Assembly: GCA_017309115.1 (NCBI GenBank)
Contig: JAFLEF010000015.1
Coordinates: forward strand, 1-64,000
Origin: Verrucomicrobiota bacterium
GTDB lineage: Bacteria; Verrucomicrobiota; Verrucomicrobiia; Limisphaerales; UBA9464
Length of the DNA stretch: 64,000 bases
Direction: 5' to 3'
A program made the position numbers and the translations under genes. This document shows positions 1,117 through 32,089 of this stretch, one piece after another. Position 1 is the stretch's first letter; each line of letters opens with the position of its first letter. The notes beneath the pieces were generated by a model. That model did not search any database and had not been told where the DNA came from. It was given only the letters and a program-made list of their open reading frames with translations.

Positions 1117-1202
1117 TGGTGCCGCTGGCGGGACTTGAACCCGCACGATCTTGCGATCTGGGGATTTTAAGTCCCCTGCGTCTGCCATTTCGCCACAGCG
1201 GC
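1117..1202 (-). tRNA. tRNA-Leu (anticodon UAA)
   Basis: Read on the minus strand, the 86-nt sequence starts GCCGCTGTGGCGAAATGGCA and ends in an encoded CCA (1117-1119). The anticodon stem-loop is GGGGA-CTTAAAA-TCCCC, giving anticodon TAA. The long variable arm (GATC-GCAA-GATC) and the T-arm GCGGG-TTCAAGT-CCCGC fit a class II leucine tRNA, and the 7-bp acceptor stem GCCGCTG/CAGCGGC is perfect. Element A lies immediately upstream of the 5' end; 1165-1202, from the anticodon loop to the first base, is repeated at 12434-12471. Confidence 0.97.
1165..1202. repeat. Attachment-site direct repeat of element A, tRNA-side copy
   Basis: These 38 bases (TTTTAAGTCCCCTGCGTCTG, then CCATTTCGCCACAGCGGC) are identical to 12434-12471. 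The identity ends exactly at the 5' end of tRNA-Leu on one side and within the anticodon loop on the other. The integrase gene begins 80 bp away. The repeat covers the 5' half of the tRNA, whereas most integrases use the 3' end, so the integrated element appears to supply or rebuild the 5' half of the gene. Confidence 0.92.
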
Positions 1203-1282
1203 AACCTTGGTAATCAACGACTTACAACGTGAAGCAACCCACCTTGTTGACCTTGTGCTTCACCGCGTGCTACTGATACGGC
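1203..1282. other. att-proximal region of element A with shared and repeated short motifs
   Basis: Bases 1213-1229 (ATCAACGACTTACAACG) match 21762-21778 next to the attachment site of element B with one difference. GTGCTAC at 1267-1273 recurs twice near the other end (12290-12296 and 12302-12308). Such short repeats flanking an att core are where integrase arm sites or excisionase sites would be expected; that role is inferred from position only. The integrase promoter must also lie here, but I see no clear -10/-35 pair. Confidence 0.5.
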
Positions 1283-2479
1283 GTGAAACGGGATGAAGCA
1301 AAAGGAAACGGGATTCCGGAAGGTCGTCACGACCGGCTTCAATACCGCCGCGTGATGGATGGGCGCAAGCAACCCGTTCGAGGATTGTGGATTCGAGGGC
1401 AGCGATTTTACGCTCAACTCCGCGTTGAGATGGACGGGAAGTCAGTTCCTCGCCGGGTACCCCTGACAACCCCCGGGGGGGCACCATGCAGCACAGCGGC
1501 AGAAGCGAAGGCAGCCCTGGAACGTTTGAAGCTCCGTCGGACCGATGACCAGTTGCAGGTTCACGACATCCGGCAAGCTCCTTACCTCCGAGATTTCGTC
1601 CCGCAGTACCTCGAAGACGTCAAAACCCGAAAGCGGCCGGAGACGTACCGGAAGGAAGTGCATGTCCTGAATCGCTGGGTTTCTGCCTTGGGTGGCCGGA
1701 GGCTGAACGCGATCCGGAAGGCGGACATCCTGGATTTTCGGGCGAGCAGGTTGAAGGAAGGAACCAACCCTCGAACCGCAAACATTGACGTCATTGTTCT
1801 CCGCCAGCTTCTCAAATACGCCTTCGACCAAGACCGCATCGGGTCTTTGCCGACGGTGGGACTGAGCCCTTTGAAGGCCGTTGCGCGGAAACGGGAGTTT
1901 GTACCGCCAGCGGACATTGACCGCCTCATTTCCTGCGCCCTTACCGCCTCGAAAAACGGGCGACAGGTTGCGGACTACCTCATGCTGCTTCGGTACAGCG
2001 GCGGGCGGGAGAAGGAGGTTCTTCGACTGCGCTGGAAGGACGTGGATTTCGACCGGAACCAACTGGTCATCGGTGCCGATGGTCTATCGAAGAATCACGA
2101 GGCGCGGATCGTGGATCTGAACGGTTCCCTGCGGGACCACCTTGCCGACATGAACGGACGGCGGGCGCCGGACTCCCAATGGCTCTTCCCGAGTCCGCAA
2201 CGGGGCGAGAAGGATGAACACGCCAAAACCTTCCGGGAATCGCTACGGCTGGCGCGGAAGGCTGCCGGAATGCCGTCCTTCGGGTTTCACGACTTGCGAC
2301 ACGCCTTCTGTTCCGCTGCCGTCATGGCCGGAATCGACTTCATGACCGTCGCCCGATGGCTGGGCCACAAGGACGGTGGAATGCTGATCGGGAAAGTCTA
2401 CGGCCACATTGCCGACGACCACCGGAAGCGCCAAGCCGCCAAGTTGGACTTCACCACAAAGGAACCTCCCACCGCTTGA
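1283..2479 (+). CDS. Tyrosine recombinase / integrase of element A
   Basis: A 398-residue phage-type integrase expected to recombine the tRNA-Leu attachment site. The N-terminal third looks like an arm-binding/SAM-like region (GLWIRGQRFYAQLRVEMDGK, then a core-binding helix set at about 105-200). The catalytic domain shows Arg242 (SGGREKEVLRL), Lys270, His336 and Arg339 (FHDLRHAF), His362 (LGHK) and nucleophile Tyr373 (VYGH). The GTG at 1283 gives the full length; ATG at 1355 (residue 25) is an alternative start because there is no strong ribosome-binding site. The gene lies 80 bp from the attachment repeat and reads away from the tRNA. It belongs to a different subfamily from the integrase of element B. 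Confidence 0.95.
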   Translation: MKRDEAKGNGIPEGRHDRLQYRRVMDGRKQPVRGLWIRGQRFYAQLRVEMDGKSVPRRVPLTTPGGAPCSTAAEAKAALERLKLRRTDDQLQVHDIRQAPYLRDFVPQYLEDVKTRKRPETYRKEVHVLNRWVSALGGRRLNAIRKADILDFRASRLKEGTNPRTANIDVIVLRQLLKYAFDQDRIGSLPTVGLSPLKAVARKREFVPPADIDRLISCALTASKNGRQVADYLMLLRYSGGREKEVLRLRWKDVDFDRNQLVIGADGLSKNHEARIVDLNGSLRDHLADMNGRRAPDSQWLFPSPQRGEKDEHAKTFRESLRLARKAAGMPSFGFHDLRHAFCSAAVMAGIDFMTVARWLGHKDGGMLIGKVYGHIADDHRKRQAAKLDFTTKEPPTA

Positions 2480-2489
2480 ACCCAATTTC

Positions 2490-2586
2490 CTCTCCGAAAA
2501 ACGCCGGGGGCCGGCGTTCGGAGAGTCACCTAACCAACCGCCAACCCGAACCAATCGGGCGCCCCCGGCGAAAACCAAAAGTCACC
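2490..2586 (+). promoter_or_regulatory. Conserved structured leader (hairpin plus C5 pairing) of element A
   Basis: The 97 bases between the integrase and the next ATG fold into CTCTCCGA (2490-2497) with TCGGAGAG (2518-2525), an inner stem ACGCC/GGCGT (2501-2505 with 2513-2517) and a G5-containing loop. A second hairpin is CCCGA-ACCAA-TCGGG (2545-2559). GCCCCCGGC (2561-2569) is complementary to GCCGGGGGC (2503-2511), so a pseudoknot or alternative fold is possible. Element B has the same architecture at 23209-23309 with compensatory stem changes and nearly invariant unpaired stretches (AGTCACC, then AACCAACCGCCAACC). No AG-rich ribosome-binding site precedes the ATG. Role unknown; cis-regulation of translation or readthrough is plausible. 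Confidence 0.75.
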
Positions 2587-3120
2587 ATGCAAACAGCAGC
2601 CAGTCAAACTATTAGGGAAGCCACCCTTCCCGACGGCACCGTCTTAAGATTCGCCGTCGATGAGGAGATTTTCCCGCGGTGGGAAGGCGTCGAACTCGAC
2701 GATTCTCTCGTCAGTGAGGGCCGGAAAGTGCGGACCCGACGAACCGGTTTGGCCCTTCAAGAATTGCACGAACTTGGCGGCAAGTACCTTCTTGCAATTC
2801 GTCCGCTTGGTCCTGACGGGAGGCGATTCAAGGGAGCCCCTGAGGTCCGGGAGATCTCTCAGTTCGAAGCCATCCGCATATTCATGGATTGGCACGGCAC
2901 CGACTTGATGACCGAGACGGTGTTGAACGCTCTTCGCGGAGAGGCGAAGGTGCAAAAGGAAAAGGGACGCATGGCTCGCGTAGAGATTCGTGGCGGACTC
3001 GCTCAGGCCCTTATCGGCCAAGCTGAGGCCCTTATCGGCCAAGCTGAGGCCCGGGGCGTCACCGAGGAGCAGTTGCTCCGGGACTTGTTGCTCGCCGCCA
3101 TTCGGGGAGGTGGCCGATGA
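2587..3120 (+). CDS. Hypothetical element protein with 7-residue tandem repeat
   Basis: 177 residues. The ATG at 2587 ends the structured leader (GTCACCATG), which decides this start over upstream in-frame codons. The N-terminal half is mixed alpha/beta; the C-terminal half is alpha-helical and contains a perfect 21-bp tandem duplication near 3006-3048 that encodes ALIGQAE twice. No family recognised. Its stop overlaps the next start (ATGA at 3117-3120), so the two are probably translationally coupled. It occupies the position of the 73-aa gene at 23310 in element B but shows no visible similarity to it. Confidence 0.8.
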   Translation: MQTAASQTIREATLPDGTVLRFAVDEEIFPRWEGVELDDSLVSEGRKVRTRRTGLALQELHELGGKYLLAIRPLGPDGRRFKGAPEVREISQFEAIRIFMDWHGTDLMTETVLNALRGEAKVQKEKGRMARVEIRGGLAQALIGQAEALIGQAEARGVTEEQLLRDLLLAAIRGGGR

Positions 3121-3410
3121 AACATCTCGCGTTGAAGTTCGCGTTGAAGTTCAAGGAACTCTCCATTGAACTCGCCATCGACTACGACCCCCACGTTCCT
3201 GGGTCCATCGAGAAAGCTGGGGAGCAGCTTCGCTTCCTCATTGGGCAGATCTACCTTGGTCGGAAATCGACGGAACTCGAACGCCTTCGAGACAAGGTTC
3301 AAGCGGGAGAGCTTCTCACGCGAGAAGAACGGGACTTTCTGCACGCACAGATTGTCGGCAACCCTCCATCCTGGCCGTCCCTACCTCAGAACAGAAACAG
3401 CCTGAACTGA
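3117..3410 (+). CDS. Hypothetical small helical protein
   Basis: 97 residues beginning MKHLALKFALKFKELSIELA; a 12-bp direct repeat (GCGTTGAAGTTC twice) encodes the LKF repeats. The rest is rich in charged residues and probably helical. The start overlaps the previous stop by four bases. I recognise no family. Conditional on the operon, it belongs to the early small-gene block of element A. Confidence 0.7.
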   Translation: MKHLALKFALKFKELSIELAIDYDPHVPGSIEKAGEQLRFLIGQIYLGRKSTELERLRDKVQAGELLTREERDFLHAQIVGNPPSWPSLPQNRNSLN

Positions 3411-3429
3411 TGTGAGACCAGGACGCTTA

Positions 3430-3579
3430 ATGGGTTCGCCGCCAGTTCATGGGAAAATCGTGTGCTTCCGGCTTCACCCGACAATCCGCAAACGCGTTGA
3501 CGAGTTAGCCCGGGAGAAGAGGCTGACACGAAGTGAAATCCTACACCGGCTGATTCGGCGGGGACTCGCCGCGAACTGA
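3430..3579 (+). CDS. Ribbon-helix-helix DNA-binding protein (49 aa)
   Basis: Start ATG at 3430, stop TGA 3577-3579, overlapping the next ATG by one base (TGATG). The product begins MGSPPVHGKIVCFRLHP and continues with two predicted helices (IRKRVDELAREK, then TRSEILHRLIRRGL). A short beta strand followed by two amphipathic helices with the RSEILHRLIRRG pattern is the Arc/CopG/MetJ ribbon-helix-helix fold. It is probably a small repressor or copy-control protein of the element. The gene is shorter than 60 codons and easily missed. Confidence 0.8.
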   Translation: MGSPPVHGKIVCFRLHPTIRKRVDELAREKRLTRSEILHRLIRRGLAAN

Positions 3580-4373
3580 TGCCGCCGAACCGCAAAACCA
3601 AACGCGTGCCGGGTCCGACCCCCGGACGCAAGGCCGCGCCAAAGATCACGGCGCCCACCGAAGGATCGTTCCCGCGGAAAGCTGAAGAAACCCGCACTGA
3701 CGGCACCAAGACCACCGTCAGCGACGACGGCATTTTTATTCGCACCAAGACTCAAGTTCCGCGAAGCACCGGCCCACTAGAAACCGAGTTGCGACGAATC
3801 AGAGCACTGAGCGCAGAGCAGCGAGAAGCTGAACGAAATGACCGAATCGCTACCTACGGAACTCCGGAACTTTGCTACAGTCATTGGACGCATCCGGGGG
3901 ACAACACAGCGCAACTACTCAACAAGATCCGATTCAACCTAGACATCATCGCTCAGCATTTGGCCACCTTAAAATCTGCCGACCATCGGAAGCTTTTGTT
4001 GGGCGACGTGGCGAGCCTAGAGAGCCAGATCAGCGAGGTGGAAGCCGCGATTGAATCCAAGACACGGCCGGAATTCATTGGAGCTTGGTGCTTCAGTATC
4101 GGAGCGGACTACACCAAGCTCGAAGTCGCTGCCAAGCTGGGTGAATTGGTGGTGGCGAAGCGAAATTCCGACGAAGGACCGAGGAGGCCTCGTGGGCAGT
4201 CGAACCCGCACTTACTCCGCCTGAAAGATAACTTCCCGAAGTGGCGCAAGTTGAGCCCGTCCCAAGCGATTCGGGCGATCCAATCAATCCTTCAAGGCTC
4301 TGACAGAGTAGCTTTTAGAGACGCCTCAGAAGCGTTTCGGAAGGCATTCACTCGCGCCAAGAAAATGAAATAG
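3579..4373 (+). CDS. Hypothetical element protein, basic N-terminus
   Basis: 264 residues; the start overlaps the upstream ribbon-helix-helix stop by one base, so the pair is probably co-translated. The first 75 residues are basic, Pro/Thr-rich and likely disordered. Residues about 110-190 are helical with Leu/Ala heptads (LLNKIRFNLDIIAQHLATL). The C-terminal third is basic with several Arg/Lys clusters. No family recognised. Coupling to a DNA-binding protein suggests a nucleoprotein partner, but this is only context. Confidence 0.75.
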   Translation: MPPNRKTKRVPGPTPGRKAAPKITAPTEGSFPRKAEETRTDGTKTTVSDDGIFIRTKTQVPRSTGPLETELRRIRALSAEQREAERNDRIATYGTPELCYSHWTHPGDNTAQLLNKIRFNLDIIAQHLATLKSADHRKLLLGDVASLESQISEVEAAIESKTRPEFIGAWCFSIGADYTKLEVAAKLGELVVAKRNSDEGPRRPRGQSNPHLLRLKDNFPKWRKLSPSQAIRAIQSILQGSDRVAFRDASEAFRKAFTRAKKMK

Positions 4374-4375
4374 TT

Positions 4376-4432
4376 CGGACGCTAGGCCTTAGCGTCCGGG
4401 CGGAGTGATGGCTAGCGGTTACCTCCTCCGCC
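4376..4432 (+). promoter_or_regulatory. Two consecutive hairpins directly in front of the AlpA-like gene
   Basis: CGGACGCTA (4376-4384) pairs perfectly with TAGCGTCCG (4390-4398). GGCGGAG (4399-4405) pairs perfectly with CTCCGCC (4426-4432), and the second stem ends at the base before the ATG at 4433. The first hairpin could terminate the upstream transcript, but no T-run follows. The second would place the start codon at the foot of a helix. A role in expression of the excisionase-like gene is inferred. Confidence 0.55.
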
Positions 4433-4672
4433 ATGTCACTTCACGCTGTTTCACCGAGTCACTCGATCACACCCGGACCGGTTCCGCTCAAAGCGTTCAT
4501 CCGCGACCGCGGTCTCTCCCCCGTCACTGTCTGGCGCTGGCGCAAACGGGGCTGGATTCAGACCTTCGAAATTGCCGGCAAGCCATACCTGAGCCTCGAT
4601 TCAATCCGCGAGTTTGAGCGGCGAGCCATCGCGGGCGAATTCGCGGCGGTACCCCGGTTCACCAACAACTGA
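4433..4672 (+). CDS. AlpA/excisionase-like helix-turn-helix protein
   Basis: 79 residues. The segment GPVPLKAFIRDRGLSPVTVW followed by RWRKRGWIQTFEIAGKPYLS and LDSIREFERRA has the layout of a small MerR/AlpA-type winged helix: a helix-turn-helix with the Ser-Pro-x-Thr-x-x-Trp-Arg recognition helix, a wing with G-K-P-Y-L, and a C-terminal helix. Such proteins act as excisionases or transcriptional switches of integrated elements. It corresponds in position and type to 24135-24338 in element B. Confidence 0.8.
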   Translation: MSLHAVSPSHSITPGPVPLKAFIRDRGLSPVTVWRWRKRGWIQTFEIAGKPYLSLDSIREFERRAIAGEFAAVPRFTNN

Positions 4673-4764
4673 AAAACCGCGCCCGGTTTCCCGGAGCGCG
4701 GCCTGCGACTTCGACACAAGCAGGATGCCCCCAGCGGAGCCGGACGCAAACCACAAACGCGTCC

Positions 4765-4962
4765 ATGAGAGACCAAGCGAATTGGGACCCTCGCGCCGCT
4801 GATTGGCGTGACGATGGCGGGTTGATTCTAACCCACGAATTCATCGACAGACTCGAAGGCGAACCGACCCCCAAGCCGAGACGGCAACGGCGTCCACCTA
4901 CGAAGCGCCCCGAGCCCCAAACCTTCACCTCGAACTCCGTTCCACCGGGGGACAGGGAATGA
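4765..4962 (+). CDS. Small basic protein with conserved PPGDRE tail
   Basis: 65 residues, proline- and arginine-rich in the middle (KPRRQRRPPTKRP) and ending in SNSVPPGDRE. The element B gene at 24328-24510 ends in SQSLPPGDRE; both lie between the AlpA-like gene and the initiator-like gene, and both overlap the initiator start by ATGA (4959-4962 here). The shared tail may partly reflect sequence needed for ribosome binding of the downstream gene, since it is encoded by a purine-rich end (GGGGGACAGGGA). Function unknown. Confidence 0.7.
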   Translation: MRDQANWDPRAADWRDDGGLILTHEFIDRLEGEPTPKPRRQRRPPTKRPEPQTFTSNSVPPGDRE

Positions 4963-5408
4963 GTCACGCCCTGGTCAAACTGGCATGGGATGCAACGTGC
5001 GATAACGCCTCCGAGAAGGTGGTTCTCCTCGCCCTCGCAGACCGGGCAAATGCGGACGGGAAATGTTGGCCAGGAATCGACGATATTGCCGCCCGTTGCT
5101 CACTCCAAGTCCGAGGGGTCAAAGGGATCATCCAGCGTCTCGAAAAGTCGGGTCACATCACCGTGGTTCGCGCCTCCGGAATCGTGAATAAATACACCGT
5201 CCACCCGTGCACGCCTTGCACTAGTGCACCGGATGCACCAGTGCATGAAATGCACCACACCCGTGCACCGGATGCACCGGTACCCGTGCACGCCGTGCAC
5301 CACACCCGTGCACGCCGTGCACCCGAATCGGTAAAGAACCTGTCAGGTGAACCGGTAATGAATCTATCCGACGCGTTCGCGGAGCAACTCGGGAGGGACG
5401 ACCAATGA
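4959..5408 (+). CDS. Replication-initiator-like winged-helix protein
   Basis: 149 residues. The N-terminal 75 residues form a clear helix-turn-helix typical of phage/plasmid replication proteins (HTH_36-like): SEKVVLLALADRANADGKCW, then DDIAARCSLQVRGVKGIIQRLEKSGHI. The central part (residues 83-121) is a His/Pro/Thr-rich string dictated by the RTGCAY repeats beneath it. The C-terminus is short and acidic. The gene lies directly before the DnaB-like helicase (ATGA overlap at 5405), as with lambda-type O-P modules. Element B has a longer initiator-like protein (24507-25253) in the same place. Role as origin-binding helicase loader is inferred. Confidence 0.75.
   Translation: MSHALVKLAWDATCDNASEKVVLLALADRANADGKCWPGIDDIAARCSLQVRGVKGIIQRLEKSGHITVVRASGIVNKYTVHPCTPCTSAPDAPVHEMHHTRAPDAPVPVHAVHHTRARRAPESVKNLSGEPVMNLSDAFAEQLGRDDQ
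5207..5322. repeat. Cluster of twelve RTGCAY-type hexamers: candidate replication origin
   Basis: Within 116 bases there are twelve copies of (G/A/T)TGCA(C/T), starting at about 5207, 5216, 5224, 5233, 5241, 5249, 5262, 5271, 5285, 5294, 5307 and 5317, spaced 8-9 or 13-14 bp. GTGCAC is itself palindromic. Larger blocks are also repeated (CACCGGATGCACC twice; CACACCCGTGCACGCCGTGC partly duplicated). The repeats sit inside the initiator-like coding region, as the iterons of lambdoid origins sit inside gene O. Origin function is inferred from this placement. Confidence 0.6.
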
Positions 5409-6769
5409 ACCCTGAAGAACTCGAAAGCCTTCCGCCGTACTCTCCGACCGACGAGCGGGGACTTCTCAGTTGTCTGATCCAAGACGCCAGCAAATGCCTA
5501 CCGGAATTCGTTGCCGATTTCCAAGGCGAGGCCAGCCACTTTTACGACTCTCGGCACCAGGTCATTTTCGGGGCAGTTCGCTGGCTCGCGGATGCACGGC
5601 AGCCCGTGGACCTGTCCACCCTAGCGGCACGACTGACCAAGAGCGGCACGATCGAGGACGCGGGCGGATTGCTCTACCTCAACGAACTTGCGGACGCTTC
5701 GCCATCTGCGGGGAACCTCAGATATTTCGCCGCCGAGGTTCGCGACTGCCGATTGCGTCGGTTGGCAATTCAGGGCGCCACCGAGGTTCTGCGGATCGCC
5801 CGGGAAGGAACGGCCGAAGATGCCGCCACGGCCGCCGAGAAGGAACTGACCGCAATTGCCACCGCTCGCTGCGGATCCGACGACACCAGCATTCGCGCCG
5901 CCGTAATCGACACGATTTCCGACTGGCAGACACAACAGGCCAACGGAAAAAAGCCGGGACTCCCGAGCGGACTGGGGATGCTTGATGTCCGGCTTCGCGG
6001 AATGCGGCCCGGGCAACTGATCGTCATCGCGGGGCGCCCTGGGGATGGCAAAACATCGCTGGCCATGCAGGCGGCAGAACACGTCGCGGTTGACCGCCGA
6101 ACCCCGGTGGGCGTGTTCAGCCTGGAAATGACCCGGGAGGAATTGGTAGGGCGGATGATTGCCGGCCGGGCGGGAGTCACCCAAGACGAAGCCACCCAGC
6201 CATTCAGCGGAAGTCCGGAGGCCGCGGAAATGAGCCGCAGACTAGCCAAGGCGGCGGGGGAGATCGGGAAGTCACCGTTGCACGTCTCGGACCGTTGCGG
6301 GCTCACCATGGGGCAAATACGCGCGCAGGCACGGCTTTGGGCGCAACGCCACAACGTGGCCTTGCTGGTCATCGACTACTTAGGGCTGATCCGAAGCGCC
6401 AACTCGAAGGCATCCGCCTACGAGCGAGTGTCTGAAATCTCCGTCGGACTGAAGGCGTTGGCCAAGGAACTCCAGGTCCCTGTGATTGGCCTGTCTCAAC
6501 TGAATCGGAAGAACCAATCAGAGGACCGGGCGCCGGATCTACATGATCTGCGGGATAGCGGATCAGTGGAGCAAGACGCAGACGTCGTCGTCATGTTGCA
6601 CCCCGACGGCGACGACGACGACGACGGGAACACACCGTTCAAAATCCTGATCCGGAAACACCGGCACGCCCGCCGCGGGGAGGTTCCGGTGATTTTCAAC
6701 CGCCGCCTGACCCGGTTTGAACCGAAGACCACCCAACCCTCACTCGAAGGGCTTGCCGACCACCCCTGA
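5405..6769 (+). CDS. DnaB-like replicative helicase of element A
   Basis: 454 residues, near the usual length of DnaB. The N-terminal DnaB domain spans about 10-115 (TDERGLLSCLIQDA, then DSRHQVIFGAVRWL). The RecA-like ATPase domain has Walker A GRPGDGKTS at 210-218, the FSLEM motif at 238-242, Walker B LVIDYLG at 321-327, then GLSQLNRKNQ (sensor) and LRDSGSVEQDADVV followed by an arginine-rich C-terminus. An Asp tract (GDDDDDG) interrupts the last part. Expected to form the hexameric ring that unwinds element DNA for autonomous replication. The start overlaps the initiator stop (ATGA). Close in architecture to the helicase of element B, with Walker A at the same residue. Confidence 0.93.
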   Translation: MNPEELESLPPYSPTDERGLLSCLIQDASKCLPEFVADFQGEASHFYDSRHQVIFGAVRWLADARQPVDLSTLAARLTKSGTIEDAGGLLYLNELADASPSAGNLRYFAAEVRDCRLRRLAIQGATEVLRIAREGTAEDAATAAEKELTAIATARCGSDDTSIRAAVIDTISDWQTQQANGKKPGLPSGLGMLDVRLRGMRPGQLIVIAGRPGDGKTSLAMQAAEHVAVDRRTPVGVFSLEMTREELVGRMIAGRAGVTQDEATQPFSGSPEAAEMSRRLAKAAGEIGKSPLHVSDRCGLTMGQIRAQARLWAQRHNVALLVIDYLGLIRSANSKASAYERVSEISVGLKALAKELQVPVIGLSQLNRKNQSEDRAPDLHDLRDSGSVEQDADVVVMLHPDGDDDDDGNTPFKILIRKHRHARRGEVPVIFNRRLTRFEPKTTQPSLEGLADHP

Positions 6770-9001: not shown

Positions 9002-9009
9002 TGACCTTC

Positions 9010-25253: not shown

Positions 25254-26581
25254 ACGAACTGACCTCACTAGACCGACTCCCGCCCCACTCGTTGCCAGCG
25301 GAACAGGGTGTGCTCGGGTGCATCCTGCTCTCTCCATCTGAAAGCTTGGATGCGTGCGCCACGCTGCCGCCCGCCGCGTTTTACGACCTCCGACACCGGG
25401 ACTTGCTCCAAACGCTTCGGGACATGCACGACGCCCGCCAACCGCTCGACCTCATCACGGTTCAACAGCGGTTGAAGGATGCCGGTCAACTCGAGGCAGT
25501 CGGCGGGATTTCCTACCTCTCCGGACTTCTCGACGCCGTACCGAGCGCCGCGAACCTTGGGTACTACCTCGGCATTCTGCGAGAGAAGTTCACCCTCCGG
25601 AGAATGCTTTCCGTTGCCACGGAAACGATTTCCCGAATCCATGAGAATGCCGCGCCGGTTGAAGACCTCGTCGCCGGATTCGAGCGAGACGTGCTTTCGG
25701 TTCGGGAAGACTCCGCAGACGATTCGGAAGCTGACGTTAGGGGATGCCTCACCGAGATCATTTCCGAGATGCAGGAAGCCGCCTCAGGCAAGCCGACGCC
25801 GCGCCTCTGGACCGGACTTCATGCGCTGGACCAATCGAGCGAAGGACTGCGGGAAGGTGAACTTTTCGTGATTGCCGGCAGGCCTGGCACGGGCAAGACC
25901 AGCCTGGCCATGCAGGTCGCCGAGCATGTCGCGGTAGGGTGCGGGAAGCCCGTAGGGGTGTTTTCGCTGGAGATGTCGCGCAAGGAGTTGCTCGGAAGGA
26001 TGGCAACATCCTTGGCACGGGTTGACGCCCGACGCGCCGAGCGTGGCCAGTTCAACGCGCAAGAGGCTTCCAGGCTAACCGCCGCCATGGGCCGTCTTTC
26101 AAGGGCGCATCTCCTCATTTGGGACAAGCCCGGGCTGACCGTGGCTCAAATCGCGGCCCGTGCGCGACGCTGGAAACAGCGCCACGGTATCGAGCTATTG
26201 GTGCTCGACTACTTGGGGTTGATTAGAGATTCGGGCCGTCAACGATCGCGCTACGAAGCCGTGTCCGACATCACCAGGGAAGTGAAGGCGCTGGCCAAGG
26301 AACTGCGGGTCCCGGTGATTCTGCTCTGCCAGCTAAACCGAGCGAGCGAGACGGACAACCGCGCCCCGCGTCTGTCTGACCTCCGCGATTCGGGTTCAAT
26401 CGAACAAGACGCCGATCTTGTCTGGTTACTCCACCACGAAGACGGGTCGGTCATCGTCGCCACCGCCAAGGCCAGACGCGGACCCCGAGGGACAACCCGA
26501 CTCAACTTCATCGGCTCATATACCCGCTTCGAAGATCAAACCAATGCGCCCGACACAGGTTCACTTGAAGGACACCCATGA
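25250..26581 (+). CDS. DnaB-like replicative helicase of element B
   Basis: 443 residues from ATG 25250, chosen because it overlaps the initiator stop (ATGA) and aligns with the start of other DnaB proteins; an in-frame codon 51 bp upstream is less likely. N-terminal domain SLPAEQGVLGCILLSPSESL through about 115; Walker A GRPGTGKTS at 210-218; FSLEM; Walker B LLVLDYLGL; CQLNRASETDNRAPRLSDLR; C-terminal Arg-finger region. Clearly homologous to the helicase of element A (shared EHVAVxxxxPVGVFSLEM). Provides element-specific replication. Confidence 0.94.
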   Translation: MNELTSLDRLPPHSLPAEQGVLGCILLSPSESLDACATLPPAAFYDLRHRDLLQTLRDMHDARQPLDLITVQQRLKDAGQLEAVGGISYLSGLLDAVPSAANLGYYLGILREKFTLRRMLSVATETISRIHENAAPVEDLVAGFERDVLSVREDSADDSEADVRGCLTEIISEMQEAASGKPTPRLWTGLHALDQSSEGLREGELFVIAGRPGTGKTSLAMQVAEHVAVGCGKPVGVFSLEMSRKELLGRMATSLARVDARRAERGQFNAQEASRLTAAMGRLSRAHLLIWDKPGLTVAQIAARARRWKQRHGIELLVLDYLGLIRDSGRQRSRYEAVSDITREVKALAKELRVPVILLCQLNRASETDNRAPRLSDLRDSGSIEQDADLVWLLHHEDGSVIVATAKARRGPRGTTRLNFIGSYTRFEDQTNAPDTGSLEGHP

Positions 26582-26769
26582 AGCCTAAGATTCGCGAACT
26601 CACCACCAAAGTTCAACGCGCCAATGCCGCGCTGACCGTCTTGGACAATGGCCGGCGCCATGACGGACAGGCCCAGACCACCGGCGCCGATCGCGTGCTG
26701 ACCGAAGCCCTGGCAGACGTTGAGGCAGCCGGCGAACTCGCCCGCCAAATCCGGGAGGGTGGACGATGA
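26578..26769 (+). CDS. Small alpha-helical protein downstream of helicase
   Basis: 63 residues, MKPKIRELTTKVQRANAALT and later ADRVLTEALADVEAAGELAR. Same size, place and helical pattern as 6798-6992 of element A. ATGA overlaps at both ends (26578 and 26766) show tight coupling. Function unknown. Confidence 0.75.
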   Translation: MKPKIRELTTKVQRANAALTVLDNGRRHDGQAQTTGADRVLTEALADVEAAGELARQIREGGR

Positions 26770-27080
26770 AAAACCCCAACTCCCAGGAACTGCAGGTCGC
26801 CGTTTTCCTCGGCGGTTTGTGCTGGCGGACCATCGACGCATTCAGCGAAGCCCCGGAAGGCGTCAGGAACGCACTTCGCCCTATCCGCGCCGCGCTGGAT
26901 GACAGCTTGAAGGACATCGACGTTGAGCTTTTCGAAGCTGCACCGGGCGAGGCCTTCAACCCGGCGACCATGCGCCCAATGCTCCACATGCCTGCACCCA
27001 AAGCCGTCACCAAGACGCTGAGCCCTGGCTTCCGGCGAAGCACAACCGGCGAAGTGTTGTCGCAAGCTCTGATCGCATGA
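26766..27080 (+). CDS. Hypothetical element protein specific to element B
   Basis: 104 residues, MKNPNSQELQVAVFLGGLCW then RTIDAFSEAPEGVRNALRPI and a C-terminal SPGFRRSTTGEVLSQALIA. No equivalent in element A and no family recognised. Four-base overlaps with both neighbours. Confidence 0.65.
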   Translation: MKNPNSQELQVAVFLGGLCWRTIDAFSEAPEGVRNALRPIRAALDDSLKDIDVELFEAAPGEAFNPATMRPMLHMPAPKAVTKTLSPGFRRSTTGEVLSQALIA

Positions 27081-27415
27081 GCCCAACCGAGTACCACGAC
27101 GGCGACGCCGACCCGAACGACCCGACCGACGAGCGCAGTGTTCCATTCGACTGGGAGGGACTCGAACACGCCATGGGCGAGGCCGAGCTTGGCCCGGTCG
27201 AGTACGAGCGGCTCTCGTTGGCCATGGGGCGAATCCTGCGCTGGCTGGTGCTCACTGATCCGGGCCAGCGTGACCGTCAGCGGATCATTGCCCGACGCGT
27301 GCTTGCCCTAGCTTGGACGGTCACCCCTGGAACGTTCGACGATTGCCCCAGCCTGAAACAAGCCGCGAAGCGTGCGGGAATTCTGAGTAGGTCGCCAATT
27401 GCTCCCCATATGTGA
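27077..27415 (+). CDS. C-terminally truncated homologue of the element HTH protein
   Basis: 112 residues. The first 95 align with the 154-residue protein of element A (FDWEGLEHAMGEAELGPVEY, AMGRILRWLVL, ARRVLALAWTVTPGTFDDCP, then LKQAAKRAG). At that point the reading frame enters the iteron-like DNA (27387 onward) and stops after ILSRSPIAPHM, so the HTH C-terminus is lost. The insertion or expansion of repeats appears to have trimmed the gene. Confidence 0.8.
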   Translation: MSPTEYHDGDADPNDPTDERSVPFDWEGLEHAMGEAELGPVEYERLSLAMGRILRWLVLTDPGQRDRQRIIARRVLALAWTVTPGTFDDCPSLKQAAKRAGILSRSPIAPHM

Positions 27416-27475
27416 CGCGTGCAACGCGCCTCGAAACTTGGGGGGGTCCCAAATTGCTCCCCATATGTGAGACGC
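27387..27475. repeat. Two more iteron-like units
   Basis: AATTGCTCCCCATATGTGA occurs at about 27398-27416 and again at 27452-27470, each preceded by GTCGCC or GTCCC and followed by GACGCG. They belong to the family at 23975-24133 (compare GTCGCCAATTGCGCCCCGTA there). They lie between two HTH genes, at the place where element A has a single related site (7463-7482). Likely operators for the same binding protein, or a secondary origin site. Confidence 0.75.
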
Positions 27476-27495
27476 GAGATGCGCACTTCAAAAAC

Positions 27496-27720
27496 ATGAA
27501 CGCAACACTTCCTGAAATTCCGGCCGATCTGAGCCTTCCTGAACTGGTCACCGCGACCGGCGTTGGCCTTCAGTTCGGCCTTCCGGCGAGCACTGCCATC
27601 CGACGTTTGGAGAAGGCTGGAATCAAACCCGACGCGTTTCTGAAGCGAGGGCATGAAGCGGCCGTGCCTCTGTTCTTGACCACCCGGCTGGTCGAACTTG
27701 AACCCGTTTTGTTCGCGTGA
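27496..27720 (+). CDS. Small HTH-type protein
   Basis: 74 residues from ATG 27496, which lies downstream of the second iteron unit; the frame is open further upstream, but that part consists of repeat DNA. LSLPELVTATGVGLQFGLPA then STAIRRLEKAGIKPDAFLKR matches the element A protein at 7499. Probable DNA-binding regulator. Stop overlaps the next start (GTGA at 27717). Confidence 0.75.
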   Translation: MNATLPEIPADLSLPELVTATGVGLQFGLPASTAIRRLEKAGIKPDAFLKRGHEAAVPLFLTTRLVELEPVLFA

Positions 27721-28178
27721 ACTTGTTTGACGCCCTCCGCGCTCAGCACCTCGGCGAGTCCGAAGTCTGGGCTTTGATTCCGCAGATGCAGGCACGCTTG
27801 CAGACGCTGAATCGGCCGGTTCCCACGGACCCGTTCGAACTGTACCTCGCCACCACCGCGACGCTGCCGGAACGACTGGAAGCCGAATGCGAGCAGATGC
27901 GGGCCGAGAATGAACGACTCCGCGCCGAGATCGCCGCGATTCCCGCGAAGTCTGCGGAACTCGACGCCGAGATCGAGCGGCTACGGGGTGAGATCGCCGC
28001 GGAGAACGCCAAAGCCGCTGCCATTTCCGCCCAGATCGAACAAGAGAAAGCCCGGATCCGGGAACTGAATCGCAAAAACGACCCCGCTTTTCTGGCTGCC
28101 AAAATGGTAGTCAAATACGGGATCCACGACCCAAGAAACCCAAAAGAAACTATCACCCATGGCCCGAAAGAAAACTGA
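27717..28178 (+). CDS. Coiled-coil element protein
   Basis: 153 residues from GTG 27717. Residues about 50-120 are a strong coiled coil (ECEQMRAENERLRAEIAAIP, then ELDAEIERLRGEIAAENAKA), followed by AAKMVVKYGIHDPR as in element A. Overlaps the next gene by 20 bp. Role unknown; scaffold-like or regulatory. Confidence 0.75.
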   Translation: MNLFDALRAQHLGESEVWALIPQMQARLQTLNRPVPTDPFELYLATTATLPERLEAECEQMRAENERLRAEIAAIPAKSAELDAEIERLRGEIAAENAKAAAISAQIEQEKARIRELNRKNDPAFLAAKMVVKYGIHDPRNPKETITHGPKEN

Positions 28179-28902
28179 AGCTGACGCCTCCGACGAGTTC
28201 GAAGCGTCTATCGCGACCTTGCCCCCATCCGTCGCACTGGCACCCCAACCCGTGGCGATTCCTGAACCCGCGCCATCCGCGCCGCCACCCTTGGCGCCGG
28301 AACTGGTCGAACTGGGCAGGCGTCACGCGGTCCCGCATGACCTGGACGAAGTTGTCCTGAAGACGTTGAAGCACGAAGCCGACGCATTCGTGACGGCGTT
28401 TGATTCTTGGTTCGCCACCTGTCTGGAAATCGAGCGCGAAGGCGACCTGCCGACGCTCATGCACCGACGGGACGAAATCACCCGGAACCTGAACACCGGG
28501 AATGTCGCGGAACTGTTCACGCTGACGACCAGGATCGTGGCGCTGACCAGCCAGCACCCTGCCGTTGCTCAGGCGAGCCAAGCGTTCGCGTTGTTCCGAC
28601 GCAAAAGCTTCGATGACTTGGTGCGACCCAGCATGGCAGCCTTCGGGTCAGCTCTCGAAGCCGGTCTGCAACGCGAGATCGACCGCGCCAGAGCCATCGA
28701 GCAAGAGTTCCTCGCGGCCTTCGGATCAGGACGCGTTGAAGGCATCGGACCTGTCGAGGAAGCTGTCCGGCGTGAATGCGCTGACCTCCTGCGCGTTCAT
28801 GAAACTTGGAAGCTTCAGGATGAGGCGATTTCCCGCATGCCCGGGCATCTGCTCGTACCGCACAACCTGGTCGAGCTTGCCCGAAAGGCGCTCGAACTGT
28901 GA
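28159..28902 (+). CDS. Conserved element protein, Pro-rich N-terminus and helical body
   Basis: 247 residues. Disordered Pro/Ala-rich N-terminus (ALAPQPVAIPEPAPSAPPPL), then helices (ADAFVTAFDSWFATCLEIER, EQEFLAAFGSGRVEGIGPVE). The C-terminus LLVPHNLVELARKALEL matches VHVPGTLLELAQQAVDL of element A. In both elements this is the last conserved protein before the three-way-junction RNA. No family recognised. Confidence 0.75.
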   Translation: MARKKTEADASDEFEASIATLPPSVALAPQPVAIPEPAPSAPPPLAPELVELGRRHAVPHDLDEVVLKTLKHEADAFVTAFDSWFATCLEIEREGDLPTLMHRRDEITRNLNTGNVAELFTLTTRIVALTSQHPAVAQASQAFALFRRKSFDDLVRPSMAAFGSALEAGLQREIDRARAIEQEFLAAFGSGRVEGIGPVEEAVRRECADLLRVHETWKLQDEAISRMPGHLLVPHNLVELARKALEL

Positions 28903-28910
28903 ACCCCTTT

Positions 28911-28981
28911 GGCGTCCCGACGAACACGCGCTTCAAACGTGGTCATGGTGCTTGGCTGAGTGGTCAAGCGGTCGGGACGCC
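28911..28981 (+). ncRNA. Candidate three-way-junction RNA of element B
   Basis: P1 pairs GGCGTCCCGAC (28911-28921) perfectly with GTCGGGACGCC (28971-28981). P2 is CACG (28925-28928) with CGTG (28938-28941). P3 is GCTTG (28950-28954), loop GCTGAGTGGT, CAAGC (28965-28969), extended by a T-G pair. The layout equals 9010-9093 of element A; the stem sequences differ entirely while the P3 loop keeps 8 of 10 bases. It begins 8 bp after the upstream stop codon. The loop also resembles a class II tRNA D-loop, which may be chance. Confidence 0.75.
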
Positions 28982-29101
28982 TCCCTTTCCCTGCCGACCC
29001 CCCGGGGTCTAAGGATTCTTTTTTCCGACCCTTTTCGTGGTGGTAGTTTCGTCACTCCACCCCTCGCGCTGGCAGACCAAAAATCACAATTTCCCACCCC
29101 C
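28982..29101. other. CCCCCGGGGT block and leader of the next gene
   Basis: Bases 28999-29021 (CCCCCGGGGTCTAAGGATTC, then TTT) match 9189-9209 of element A. A T-run follows (TTTTTT at about 29019-29024), so in element B the GC block plus T-run could act as a terminator; element A has only a short T-run. The remainder, up to ATG 29102, holds no gene. Confidence 0.5.
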
Positions 29102-29440
29102 ATGAACCGACAAATCCTATCCGCCGAAACCCGGCGACTTGCCAAGGGAATGATTGCCGCCTCGAAGGCGTTGCAAGAGTTCCGCTCTCGCGGCCCCCAG
29201 TCACCACGGGGGGGCATCGCCCTCGATCAACTTGTGACGATCCTGACCGAGGGCGCGTTGCTGGCCGGTCAACTCCGGGACAACGACGACCCGGCGTTTT
29301 GGACAGAACCGAACTTCCGCAAGAACACCCCCGCGCCGAGCGCCGGCGCCACCCCCAGCGCGTTTGAATGTCTGAACCGGCCGAACCCCGCCGCCGGCTA
29401 CAGCTTCGATGACCGCCGCCGGGAAGGCCTACCCACCTAA
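29102..29440 (+). CDS. Hypothetical protein upstream of tape-measure gene
   Basis: 112 residues from ATG 29102. Helical N-terminal part MNRQILSAETRRLAKGMIAA, then a middle part with GGIALDQLVTILTEGALLAG and a Pro/Ala-rich tail. Three bases separate it from the tape-measure-like gene, so the two are one transcript. No family recognised; a tail-assembly accessory is possible by position only. Confidence 0.65.
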   Translation: MNRQILSAETRRLAKGMIAASKALQEFRSRGPQSPRGGIALDQLVTILTEGALLAGQLRDNDDPAFWTEPNFRKNTPAPSAGATPSAFECLNRPNPAAGYSFDDRRREGLPT

Positions 29441-29443
29441 ACC

Positions 29444-31291
29444 ATGAGCAACACGATCAAAGTAAAAGTCGGAATCGACGGCGTTGAGCAGGTCGAGGCG
29501 GGAATGCGCCGCGTTGGCGATTCCGCGAAGCAGGCCTTCGCCAAGCTCAATGCGGAGAGCGCGCGGTTCAACCAGGTCACCGGTCAGTTCCAGAAACTGG
29601 GTAGCATCGCCGCGGCTACCGGGTCGCCGGTCGCGCAACAGGTTTCCGCCATCGCGGAAAGCTTCCGGCTACTGCGCTCCGCCGCGTCACCCGCCGCCCT
29701 GGGAGTCGCCGGCTTTTTCGCCGTGGCAACGAAGGCAACTGAAGCCTACTTCCAACGCGTCGCCCGGTTGAGTGAAGAACTATCCGCCCGCTTGGGTTTG
29801 GCCCTGGGCCCTGGGACCGCCATCATGGGGCGAGCCCCGGACATCGCCAGCGAACAGGACCGCCAGAAGCTACTGACTGACCTCGATTCGGAAGTCTCCC
29901 GGTTGGGGAAACGCCGGACCGAGCTCATGGCCAAGCTCAACACGTGGGGAAGTTGGTTCCAGGATGGCAAAAACGGCATTGAAGAGCTGAAAGCCGTTAG
30001 CGAGCAGCTCCGCACCCTCCAATCAATCCGGGAACGCTACTCCGGAGCCATCGGCAAGGAGACCGTCTATCAGAATCAACTCGCGCAAGCTAACCGTGAA
30101 TCCTCGGAGTGGTTGAAGGTCCACGCGGATAGCTACAATCTCGAAATCGAGGCTCTCATGCGGTCCCAAGCACCGTTGACGGAGCAGCTGAAACTTCTGG
30201 AGAAGGAACGGAAAGCCCTCGAGGAACTTTACGCGAACACGTCCGGCGCCTCCCCGATGGGCGAAAAGGCGCGCCTCCAAATCCGTTTGGACATCCTGAA
30301 AGCCAAGGAGAAGGAAACCGCGATAGAAGGACAGTTGGCGGACCTCGCCGCCCGGGAAGCCGAGGCTACCAAGCGCCAAGTGAAGGAAATCAACGACGCA
30401 TGGCGCGAGCAGGTCGAACACGTCAACGCCGTCGGGCGCGAACTCCAACAGCATCACCTCATGCTGGCAGCGATTGAAGCGCGGATGCGCGACAACGCCC
30501 GCGGCTCGACCTACGCCGGGGCATCGGCTGACGCCTACGGACAGCACCGCCTCGCCGGGATGACGGAGCAGGCATACGGCATGGGCGGCATGGGTGCCGG
30601 GGCAATCGCGGGGATTCAGAACGCCGTGACCATGCTGGGCACGACGGCGAGCCAAGTGGGCAACGCCATCACCAGCAGCATCGGCGGCGCACTCGACGGA
30701 ATCTCGTCCAGTATCGAAGGACTTATCCGGGGAACGATGACTTGGGCGGATGCCTTCCGAAACGTCGGGATGGCCATCCTTAACAGCGTGGTGACCGCGT
30801 TCGCCAAGATGATCGCGCAGATGATGGTGAGCTTCATCCTTCAGAAGATTTTCGGGAAGGCGATGCAGCAACAGGCCATGCAGGTAGGCAGCGCGTGGAC
30901 CGCCGCGGCAATCAGCGCCTCGATCGCGTCTTACGGTACGGCTGCCGGCGTCGGTCTGGGTGCCTTCCTAGCCGCTCAGGCAGCGGGCCAAGCGGCAACG
31001 GTTGGCATGTCCGGGTTCGCATCGGGTGGGTTCACCGGCAACCAACCCACCAACGCCGTCGCTGGCGTGGTCCACGGCGGGGAGTTCGTCTTCTCCGCTC
31101 CCGCGGTTCGCCGGGTCGGACTGGACAACCTCGAAGCCATGCACGACGGGGCCAAGTCGGGCACGGGTGCGGGCGGAAAGCCAATCGGGATTGCCCTTTT
31201 CGACAACCGCCGCGAGGCAGAGCGGATGATTCAGGAAAACGAAGGCTGGGTCATGGAAGTTGTCTCCCGCAACCGGCATCAATTTCGCTAG
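29444..31291 (+). CDS. Phage tail tape-measure-like protein
   Basis: 615 residues. N-terminus MSNTIKVKVGIDGVEQVEAG with early helices is typical of tape-measure proteins; a long helical/coiled-coil middle (about 130-320) follows; then hydrophobic Gly/Ala-rich segments (GIQNAVTMLGTTASQVGNAI, NSVVTAFAKMIAQMMVSFIL) and the diagnostic C-terminal block GFASGGFTGNQPTNAVAGVV then HGGEFVFSAPAVRRVGLDNL. By the usual relation of tape length to tail length this is short for a siphophage. No other tail gene is present in the element, which makes it striking. Followed by a strong terminator. Confidence 0.85.
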   Translation: MSNTIKVKVGIDGVEQVEAGMRRVGDSAKQAFAKLNAESARFNQVTGQFQKLGSIAAATGSPVAQQVSAIAESFRLLRSAASPAALGVAGFFAVATKATEAYFQRVARLSEELSARLGLALGPGTAIMGRAPDIASEQDRQKLLTDLDSEVSRLGKRRTELMAKLNTWGSWFQDGKNGIEELKAVSEQLRTLQSIRERYSGAIGKETVYQNQLAQANRESSEWLKVHADSYNLEIEALMRSQAPLTEQLKLLEKERKALEELYANTSGASPMGEKARLQIRLDILKAKEKETAIEGQLADLAAREAEATKRQVKEINDAWREQVEHVNAVGRELQQHHLMLAAIEARMRDNARGSTYAGASADAYGQHRLAGMTEQAYGMGGMGAGAIAGIQNAVTMLGTTASQVGNAITSSIGGALDGISSSIEGLIRGTMTWADAFRNVGMAILNSVVTAFAKMIAQMMVSFILQKIFGKAMQQQAMQVGSAWTAAAISASIASYGTAAGVGLGAFLAAQAAGQAATVGMSGFASGGFTGNQPTNAVAGVVHGGEFVFSAPAVRRVGLDNLEAMHDGAKSGTGAGGKPIGIALFDNRREAERMIQENEGWVMEVVSRNRHQFR

Positions 31292-31309
31292 GTCATGGTT
31301 AATGGGTGA

Positions 31310-31338
31310 CCCCGGCCGGCAGTCTGGCCGGGGTTTTT
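31310..31338 (+). terminator. Rho-independent terminator after the tape-measure gene
   Basis: CCCCGGCC (31310-31317), loop GGCAGTCT, GGCCGGGG (31326-31333), TTTTT (31334-31338). Perfect 8-bp GC stem and T-run, 18 bp after the stop codon. Confidence 0.93.
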
Positions 31339-31351
31339 CTTTGCCCATGCC

Positions 31352-31540
31352 GGTGACAACGCGTCACCAGCCGGAAATCAAGTGGACAACGTGTCAGCTT
31401 GAAAGGCTTCACGGCGGGGACAGAAAATCAAGGTTGCAACGTGAAACCTTGAACGACTTTGGTCCATCGGGGTAACAACGTGTTACCCCGGTAACAACGC
31501 GTTACCAGGGTTCCCGCAGATTTGGTGACACGTTGTCATC
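31352..31540. repeat. Array of six palindromes with constant AACGY centre and varying arms
   Basis: Units: GGTGAC-AACGC-GTCACC (31352-31368); AAGTGGAC-AACGT-GTCAGCTT (31380-31400, imperfect); AAGGTTGC-AACGT-GAAACCTT (31430-31450, one mismatch); CGGGGTAAC-AACGT-GTTACCCCG (31468-31490); GGTAAC-AACGC-GTTACC (31490-31506); and, inverted, GATGAC-AACGT-GTCACC (31524-31540). The 5-base centre is fixed and the arms change together, so pairing is what is maintained. It lies between the terminator of the plus-strand operon and the end of the minus-strand cargo gene, just inside the att site. Function unknown. Confidence 0.75.
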
Positions 31541-31557
31541 AATTCGCCCGCGTTCTC

Positions 31558-31932
31558 TCATTTTCCAAGGGCGCAATTCATAACCTCGTCTTGATAAATC
31601 TTCTTAGACTCCTCCCACGCTTGCTGCACCTGGTCGATGACGGTGCTCTTTTCGCTTGGGCTAAGAGTTTCAATTGTATCGAGCCGCAGCTTCGCTACCT
31701 CGATGAATCTGGCTCGCTGTTCTAGTTCAAGTTGAACGATTCGGTGCCGGTTTGTTCGCGCTGATTCATGGATTGTAGTGACAGCAAATCCCACAAACGC
31801 GAGTACTGTTCCGATGGCACTAAGCAGATCGTCAGGCACCCCTGCGCAGTGCAGTGCAACGATTAAGAGTAGAGCTGTGGAGCCAAAAGCCAGAAGTTTG
31901 ATCCCGAGGTTCATCAATCGGCATGAAGCCAT
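31558..31932 (-). CDS. Two-TM membrane cargo protein of element B
   Basis: 124 residues (118 if started at the internal Met, 31914). Membrane segments LLAFGSTALLLIVALHCAGV and LLSAIGTVLAFVGFAVTTIH, then a heptad-rich cytosolic helix (LEQRARFIEVAKLRLDTIET). AT-richer than its neighbours, opposite orientation, at the distal end: same cargo niche as the minus-strand genes of element A, but no sequence similarity is visible. Possible defence or exclusion function. Confidence 0.7.
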   Translation of the reverse strand: MASCRLMNLGIKLLAFGSTALLLIVALHCAGVPDDLLSAIGTVLAFVGFAVTTIHESARTNRHRIVQLELEQRARFIEVAKLRLDTIETLSPSEKSTVIDQVQQAWEESKKIYQDEVMNCALGK

Positions 31933-32066
31933 TTCGACTCACTGGAATCAACGTTGACTAGTTCACACTTTTTCACACGTTCTGAACCGATTTCGCTTGC
32001 ATTGACTTGCAGGCGAAAACCCCAGAAACCCCAACAAATCGAGGTTTTTGACAGTTTCCCCGTGGC

Positions 32067-32089
32067 TTCGAATCCCCCCCTCTCCGCCA
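32067..32089. repeat. Attachment-site direct repeat of element B, distal copy
   Basis: Identical to 21735-21757 (T-loop to CCA of tRNA-Ser). Marks the right boundary of element B. The conflict operon starts (3' end) only 105 bp further on, with a fragment of the REP-like repeat (CCAGAGCGTCGCCCTACC at about 32182-32199) in between. Confidence 0.93.

Follow-up and report, generated by a model that had tools for sequence, protein, structure and literature searches.

Two stretches of DNA in a verrucomicrobial contig raise the question of what kind of mobile element carries its own integrase and replication genes together with, at most, a single recognisable tail gene. The window analyzed here comprises 64,000 nucleotides, namely the first 64 kb of the 129-kb contig JAFLEF010000015.1 (C19) of a Verrucomicrobiota bacterium of the Limisphaerales (assembly GCA_017309115.1; genome G000, 7.53 Mb in 111 contigs). 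Element A occupies positions 1165-12471 and element B positions 21728-32092; a third element, C, was found elsewhere in the genome. Throughout, L-numbers denote loci, G-numbers genomes and C-numbers (C19, C26) contigs of the window's genome. We conclude that A, B, and C are probably phage satellites which remodel the particles of a helper phage with substitute morphogenesis proteins.

Three related elements integrated in tRNA genes

Element A is inserted in a tRNA-Leu TAA gene (1117-1202, minus strand) and is bounded by an exact 38-bp repeat at 1165-1202 and 12434-12471. Element B is inserted in a tRNA-Ser GGA gene (21667-21757) and is closed by a 33-bp repeat of 91% identity at 21728-21760 and 32060-32092. 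These attachment (att) repeats and the tRNA calls, the latter being the only Rfam matches at gathering score within the window, bear out the initial annotation of A and B as bounded, tRNA-integrated elements. The att copy of A corresponds to the 5' half of its tRNA gene up to the anticodon loop; B, C, and the related element D described below use the 3' end of tRNA-Ser genes, and the integrase of A is likewise the odd one out. Dense simple repeats (GGTAAGC, CTCAGCT) are located at 21261-21595, upstream of the tRNA-Ser gene.

The proteins of A, B, and C were compared by BLASTP without low-complexity filter. Seven genes of A matched collinear counterparts in B at 22-50% identity, encoding the integrase (29% over 133 aa, E-value 8e-8), a PPGDRE-tailed protein (38%, 1e-11), a DnaB helicase (43%, 7e-106), a small helical protein (34%, 1e-5), the FDW protein (49%, 5e-29), a second helix-turn-helix (HTH) protein (50% over 58 aa, 6e-13), and a large protein (22%, 1e-7). 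The AlpA-like, initiator, and gene 2/3 proteins gave no BLASTP match between A and B; the coiled-coil proteins can be aligned at 26% identity, yet gave no match at 1e-2. Two other matches, of the A coiled coil to the B PPGDRE-tailed protein (2e-4) and of the B large protein to the B tape measure (0.006), were read as chance or low complexity. The seven genes in one order, plus a leader and a structured RNA, support the proposed common architecture.

A DNA search of the whole genome revealed another copy (87%) of the leader and gene 2 of A on contig C45, and thereby element C, which measures 11.3 kb and is inserted in tRNA-Ser CGA with an exact 23-bp repeat. Hence, the family of two co-resident members that had been proposed stands as a family, but counts three members in this genome. 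C resembles B in its integrase (55%), AlpA-like protein (58%), and tape measure (48%), and A in gene 2 (89%), the FDW protein (97%), the coiled-coil protein (85%), and the large protein (85%). The low protein identity noted earlier therefore holds for A versus B, but not generally, as the last three proteins demonstrate. In the place of DnaB, C has three open reading frames (ORFs), the last of which encodes an ERCC4-type nuclease (phrog_3490, 3e-16); a DUF3102 match, obtained for one protein in a set of C and leftover proteins, was taken by sequence as the first of the three. This mosaic of A-type and B-type genes indicates that parts move between co-resident elements, and late proteins of A and C that are 85-97% identical next to different integrases suggest recent exchange between elements.

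Element D (L250) resides in tRNA-Ser GGA of another species of the genus, with att copies 9.75 kb apart and an integrase 71% identical to that of B. In a third species of the genus, neither integrase nor element gene was seen beside tRNA-Ser GGA; the flanks of the window align to neither species beyond a few dozen bases before the tRNA, so this does not prove an empty site. Profile searches of PVC genomes had been suggested to find further elements; within the order, an FDW alignment matched 15 of 196 genomes. By eye, five of these are satellite-like (G000, G067, G100, G170, G188) and seven contain phages (G013, G063, G073, G084, G138, G143, G182); the matches in G010, G043, and G132 were discarded as chance, since they overlap ruvB-like genes and each holds an internal stop. 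A capsid alignment matched 18 of the 196 genomes. Among 321 genomes, matches were obtained in 27 with a tape-measure alignment (at 1e-10), in nine with an alignment of the phage protein encoded before the capsid gene (pre-capsid protein), and in two, the window's own genome and G100, with a large-protein alignment; genomes that supplied alignment rows match by construction, and many matches are full phages. The capsid scan of IMG/VR gave 114 relatives, 80 of which were kept, most of them near 40% identity. A tape-measure scan of a genome-contig database gave no confirmed relative.

Gene maps were read by eye to list 18 candidate satellites, 17 from one order and one (L056) from IMG/VR: A, B, C, D, L029, L031, L032, L047, L209, L056, L211, L212, L238, L239, L240, L241, L235, and L041. 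Several are partial, and the contigs of L031, L041, L209, L211, L212, L235, and L240 are short or cut. For A to D, the att repeat was checked at both ends; L236 and L237, which match the pre-capsid profile, were excluded. L054 and L055 are records of the L029 and L047 loci, both from verrucomicrobial metagenome-assembled genomes. A tRNA or tmRNA gene adjoins A to D and nine of the 14 other candidates. L211 and L212 (G138) are closely similar and end at tRNA-Ser CGA and tRNA-Ser GGA, which are also the sites of C and B. L209 (5611-6123) and L047 (17384-17896) have a tRNA-Glu insertion in common, and the flanking 170-aa host protein (MNKTELF...) is identical over the printed residues; such sharing across genomes of different families may reflect misbinned contigs or one source population. 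B-type integrases also occur in other islands of the window's genome, and the idea that all of them mark satellites was dropped.

Virion morphogenesis genes

Seventeen proteins from phages of G073, G138, G143, and G182 were used as local queries in tblastn at 1e-3. At this threshold, which divergent versions could escape, the large terminase, portal, minor-tail, and tip queries gave no match in any of the 18 candidates. Four of the 18 matched scaffold and/or small terminase, namely L031, L032, and L041 the former and L032 and L240 the latter. Ten phage and satellite labels were checked with PHROGs, among them phrog_15 (large terminase), phrog_21 (portal), and phrog_247 (major head); further labels checked in this way were the protease-capsid fusion and the tail-assembly and tail families. 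Neither the phrog_15 terminase nor the phrog_21 portal was matched in the window's genome; hence, the genome as assembled shows no helper of the kinds represented by the local phages. The phrog_2 terminase was matched on C26, C50, and C32 only, weakly on the latter two. C26, with the only strong match of the genome, carries what by eye is a Mu-like prophage (L206-L207). Pfam and PHROG scans of the A, B, and C proteins gave no capsid match, nor did a search of the window's genome with the capsid profile used. Thus, the earlier statement that packaging and capsid genes are missing holds for large terminase and portal at the thresholds used, but has to be qualified for the coiled-coil protein, which is related to a phage pre-capsid protein.

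The sole recognised tail gene of B encodes a tape-measure protein of 615 aa (29444-31291, plus strand; 48% to C). It matched PHROG tape-measure families, best phrog_1107 at 1e-18, and the Pfam lambda tape measure at only 0.023; its C-terminus matched annotated tape measures in 140 phage records, none covering more than 80% of the query. The lone tail gene on which the initial annotation remarked is, however, not unique to B: C encodes a similar protein of 629 aa, L032 one of 764 aa, and L031 one of 708 aa (1e-31), L211 and L212 encode proteins of 473 and 484 aa with weak matches (4e-4 and 1.4e-3), and a 504-aa protein of L029 matched at 0.024 only. The 21 non-satellite homologues had a median length of 810 aa (range 387-959), and at 18 of their loci, two of which supplied the labels, homologues of minor-tail or tip proteins are present as well. 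Satellite tape measures were shorter on average (Mann-Whitney p = 0.003, or 0.019 when L211 and L212 are omitted), with overlapping ranges, and those of B and C were shorter than 18 of the 21.

Phages of G138, G013, G201, and G063 encode a coiled-coil protein directly before the capsid gene (capsid label checked for G138). When a profile of the A, B, and C coiled-coil proteins was searched against 1005 ORFs from chosen loci, the best four non-satellite matches were exactly these phage proteins (2e-4 to 6e-3; next non-satellite match 0.06). The reverse search with the phage pre-capsid profile found L032, A, and C at 3.5e-4 to 9e-4, and pairwise hhalign of the two kinds of protein gave an E-value of 7e-4 and 27% probability. 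From these sequence comparisons we take the proteins of A, C, and L032 as homologous to the phage pre-capsid protein, and that of B is likely homologous as well. The phage protein is presumed to be a scaffold from its position and coil.

Other members carry genes for small terminase and/or capsid protein. L032 encodes a small terminase (phrog_57, 1e-10) which is 50% identical to that of the G073 phage; phrog_57 was also matched in L238 (9e-5) and L031 (0.0016). A small-terminase candidate of L047 (240 aa) matched no PHROG and is 42% identical to the protein encoded ahead of the terminase in phage contig L058. The second HTH protein matched phrog_141 weakly in C (5e-4), L031 (0.0068), and A (0.088). 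Major capsid proteins are encoded in L029 and L047 (phrog_283, 1e-11 and 3e-16), and those of L209 and L056 are 49-64% identical to them; L211 and L212 hold cut copies, L238, L239, and L241 gave weak matches (6e-7 to 6e-6), and L240 gave none (0.12). The capsid gene of L029, L047, L209, and L056 stands alone (355-381 aa), whereas the nearest phage capsids are fusions with a head maturation protease (692-763 aa; G073 checked). In a capsid tree, the satellites did not form one clade and at least three changes were forced; a single capture of the capsid gene by satellites was therefore dropped.

Satellites weighed against other origins

Boundaries, gene content, homologies, and the absence of the named genes at the thresholds used were observed directly; dependence on a helper, excision, and remodelling of head and tail are what we infer from them. 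A tailed helper phage would supply the large terminase, portal, tail tube, tail tip, and lysis functions. The element would be excised by its own integrase and replicated by its own initiator and helicase, with other replication genes in C and further members. The scaffold homologue may then act on the helper head in A and C, and probably in B, and the tape measure of B and C would replace that of the helper and give a chimeric tail. Other members might provide a small terminase directing packaging and/or a major capsid protein without protease. That the elements form a satellite-like family, as initially supposed, is supported by bounded tRNA insertions, own integrase and replication genes, the failure to find a large terminase, portal, or tail-assembly gene, and relatives in the order. 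The genome-wide absence of phrog_15 and phrog_21 matches also favours this reading; set against two observations that weigh slightly the other way, the tblastn result for A, B, and C and the stand-alone capsids of distant viruses, it leaves the balance as it was.

Several observations weigh against it. Neither a helper phage nor excised circles or packaged DNA were seen, and in IMG/VR neither the FDW nor the tape-measure alignment found a confirmed relative. In tblastn, not one of the 17 phage queries, scaffold and small terminase included, hit A, B, or C; the best small-terminase match of the three is the 5e-4 of C. The scaffold link is distant and involves a coiled coil, the phage pre-capsid profile reaches B at 0.17 only, and the phage proteins owe the name scaffold to their position and coil, PHROGs giving no such name. 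In addition, the large protein of one subgroup gave weak hhalign matches (0.0045, 0.015, 0.037, 0.37) to the pre-capsid protein of the other. A is without tape measure and has accessory genes there instead. Three of the 21 non-satellite tape measures (387, 388, and 583 aa) are shorter than that of B, and that of L032 reaches 764 aa; moreover, the p-values for length count related sequences as independent, and the starts come from an in-house gene caller. The stand-alone capsids count slightly less because distant viral relatives (about 40% identity) are also stand-alone ORFs, of 303-319 aa.

The elements might instead be decayed prophages which kept the integrase, replication genes, and a few late genes by chance. 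This would explain why the identifiable late genes have phage homologues, why full phages of the order (loci judged by eye) encode the FDW protein too, and why A is without tape measure; the integrase of L032 is split into two ORFs, the coiled-coil frame of L031 looks broken, and the polyphyletic capsids are what repeated capture or decay would give. Decay by chance would hardly produce a similar compact gene order and a size of 10-11 kb with closed att repeats in separate species and tRNA sites, nor late proteins of A and C so alike despite different integrases; stand-alone capsids set against fusions in the nearest phages argue in the same direction, tempered by the distant relatives just mentioned. 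The more specific case, that the pieces are remnants of one complete prophage at the same attachment site, was tested and does not apply, because every element ends in an att repeat of its own, phrog_2 was matched on other contigs only, and phrog_15 and phrog_21 gave no match in the genome. We consider an origin by decay unlikely, and the same degree of doubt applies to anti-phage islands in which tape measure and scaffold serve as decoys that wreck helper assembly, transfer being secondary. Tail assembly is a known target of defence systems (Tai, Rta), and one of 28 A, B, and C proteins gave a weak PADLOC match (mad1, 2e-4); own integrase and replication genes, as well as small terminases in relatives, point to transfer, and the tape measure of the PLE satellites discussed below is described as serving transduction. 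Least probable are integrative elements that move by conjugation or transformation and carry phage-derived genes as passengers. A B-like integrase does lie beside a gene cluster resembling that of conjugative elements in another island of the window's genome (L260, G000:C60:9000-28000), by eye; no relaxase or conjugation family is among the Pfam and PHROG matches listed for A, B, and C proteins, and scaffold, tape-measure, small-terminase, and capsid genes would make little sense in such elements.

Gene maps, structured RNAs, and known satellites

ORFs were called with a simple in-house gene caller, and some starts are misplaced, for example that of the A integrase. On the plus strand, A starts with the tyrosine integrase (1283-2479; PF00589, 5e-23), the leader (2498-2579), and gene 2 (2587-3120), which had no Pfam or PHROG match up to E 1, followed by two ORFs without assigned function, a small one at 3117-3410 (no match at 0.01) and one at 3579-4373 (Pfam and PHROG scans). 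A weakly AlpA-like small HTH protein (4433-4672; phrog_66 at 0.043 only) precedes the PPGDRE-tailed protein (4765-4962), an O-like replication initiator (4959-5408; HTH_36, 5e-11; phrog_1032, 1e-16), and the DnaB-type helicase (5405-6769; PF03796, 2e-71). Short GTGCAC-containing repeats (families D6, D7, and D10) lie inside the initiator gene at 5202-5326; origins inside O-like genes often have such repeats. Downstream are the small helical protein (6798-6992; 39% to C), the helical FDW protein with C-terminal HTH (6989-7453), the second HTH protein, weakly small-terminase-like (7499-7714), the coiled-coil protein (7704-8162), the large helical protein without assigned function (8159-9001), and a three-way-junction RNA (9010-9093). 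An AlphaFold model of the FDW protein (pLDDT 74.4) found no fold match in PDB or BFVD at 1e-3; that of the large protein (pLDDT 54.6) was too low to use for a fold search. Two late ORFs follow at 9401-9772 (41% to C) and 9769-9981 (63% to C; no PHROG match up to E 1). The two accessory ORFs (10224-11230, minus strand), without PHROG match below 0.2, occupy the position of the tape measure of C, and end ORFs were called at 11588-11833 on the minus and 11905-12246 on the plus strand.

B likewise reads on the plus strand from the tyrosine integrase (21833-23053; PF00589, 2e-10) through the leader (23222-23303) and genes 2 and 3, without assigned function (23310-23869, ORF calls), to the AlpA-like HTH protein (24135-24338; HTH_17, 7e-7; phrog_66, 8e-7). 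Before the latter, a repeat search found four direct repeats of about 34-bp spacing (family D1, 23982-24131), and two related copies are located near 27390-27484 at the junction of the FDW and second HTH genes; together they are possibly an origin. The PPGDRE-tailed protein (24328-24510) is followed by a putative initiator, so called from position only (24507-25253; no family below 0.25), the DnaB-type helicase (25250-26581; PF03796, 4e-77), the small helical protein (26578-26769), an extra ORF without BLASTP counterpart in A (26766-27080), the FDW protein (27077-27415), the second HTH protein (27412-27720), the coiled-coil protein (27717-28178), the large protein (28159-28902), and the junction RNA (28911-28982). 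An ORF at 29105-29440, without assigned function in Pfam and PHROG scans, precedes the tape measure, and an end ORF was called at 31558-31932 on the minus strand.

The leaders of A and B are 82% identical over 82 nt. Two alternative pairings are possible, as expected of an attenuator, in which two of eight and two of nine hand-chosen pairs show double-sided changes over A, B, and C, none being broken. The A leader gave only a chance-level Rfam match to sroD, on the opposite strand. The three-way junction, which had been noted as part of a conserved non-coding block, directly follows the gene of the large protein in A, C, L032, and L031 with a P1 helix of 12-14 bp (14 bp in A), and in weaker form in B. 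Its existence is corroborated by fold z-scores of -5.3 (A), -3.9 (C), and -2.1 (B, for which 4 of 200 shuffles were equally good) and by covariation, 7 of 18 hand-chosen P1 and P3 pairs changing on both sides and none being broken over just the three sequences of A, B, and C. A scan of eight elements found no further junction with a P1 of at least 12 bp, though it missed that of B; in L029 and L047 it found smaller junctions only, and in L209 none. The A junction RNA had no Rfam match at E ≤ 1. Between junction and tape measure there are no ORFs in L032, one in B and L031, and two in C. For the late region, the RNA probably serves as a regulator or as a terminator, and T-runs after one junction in L031 and L032 suit a terminator. 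A phi29-like packaging-RNA role was dropped, as there was no evidence for it.

Among known satellites, the phage-inducible chromosomal island-like elements (PLEs) of Vibrio cholerae, with helper ICP1, come closest in the way they work, which does not imply membership. PLE11 virions contain the PLE tape measure in place of that of the phage and have tails that are shorter by about 10 nm; when the tape-measure gene (tmp) is deleted, transduction of PLE1, PLE4, and PLE11 falls by 96, 99, and 99.9% (PMC12987554). In the same paper, a conserved small RNA is speculated to help, tmp genes are pointed out in other satellites, and PLEs are described as the first known case of satellites making chimeric tails, with generality, mechanism, and benefit left open (PMC12987554). 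Members here similarly have their own tape measure, with a structured RNA upstream; they differ in phylum, in having a scaffold homologue or a whole capsid protein, and in that no chaperone or baseplate-hub gene was recognised. The gene set still matches no system that we know, as the initial annotation had it, but the strategy does; the family is apparently new, the strategy known.

Capsid-forming phage-inducible chromosomal islands (cfPICIs) produce their own capsids (PMC11389934), and some are described with a putative tmp. A major capsid protein and/or a small terminase is likewise encoded by some members here; as neither portal nor large terminase was found in them, they lack the full capsid operon of cfPICIs. 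The Staphylococcus aureus pathogenicity islands SaPI1 and SaPIbov5 are alike in using single substitute morphogenesis proteins, and differ in their Gram-positive hosts; to our knowledge, neither has a tape measure. SaPI1 employs CpmA and CpmB ('Competing scaffolding proteins determine capsid size', PMC5644958), and the Ccm of SaPIbov5 is a capsid-protein homologue (PMC8569155). Of the traits given for phage-inducible chromosomal islands, namely unique attachment sites, phage-dependent induction, interference, and specific packaging (PMC6092414), specific tRNA attachment sites are present here. Charybdis elements differ, being 4.6 kb long with archaeal hosts and no hallmark genes (PMC12324425). 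Between them, full tailed phages of the order (G073, G138, G013, G143) have homologues of the FDW protein, the presumed scaffold, the small terminase, the capsid protein (68% between G073 and L029), and the tape measure, but possess large terminase, portal, tail-assembly, and tip genes, with tape measures of 802-852 aa. Word searches of open-access papers found no description of such elements in Verrucomicrobia.

It is conceivable, though we put it forward tentatively, that one lineage picks interchangeable geometry parts and leaves the rest to the helper, scaffold, protease-less capsid, small terminase, and tape measure setting head size, cargo choice, and tail length, and that the conserved RNA of the tape-measure subgroup coordinates the switch. 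If so, chimeric tails would have arisen in a second, unrelated bacterial phylum, and the RNA would have a role comparable to that proposed for the PLE small RNA. Comparison with a separate lineage, one in which three members share a genome, a scaffold homologue is present, and no tail gene but the tape measure was recognised, would make it possible to ask whether tail length itself is selected, whether the tape measure dodges tail-targeting defence, or whether it adapts DNA entry. It would extend phage satellites to a phylum for which the open-access word searches found no satellite paper by title or abstract.

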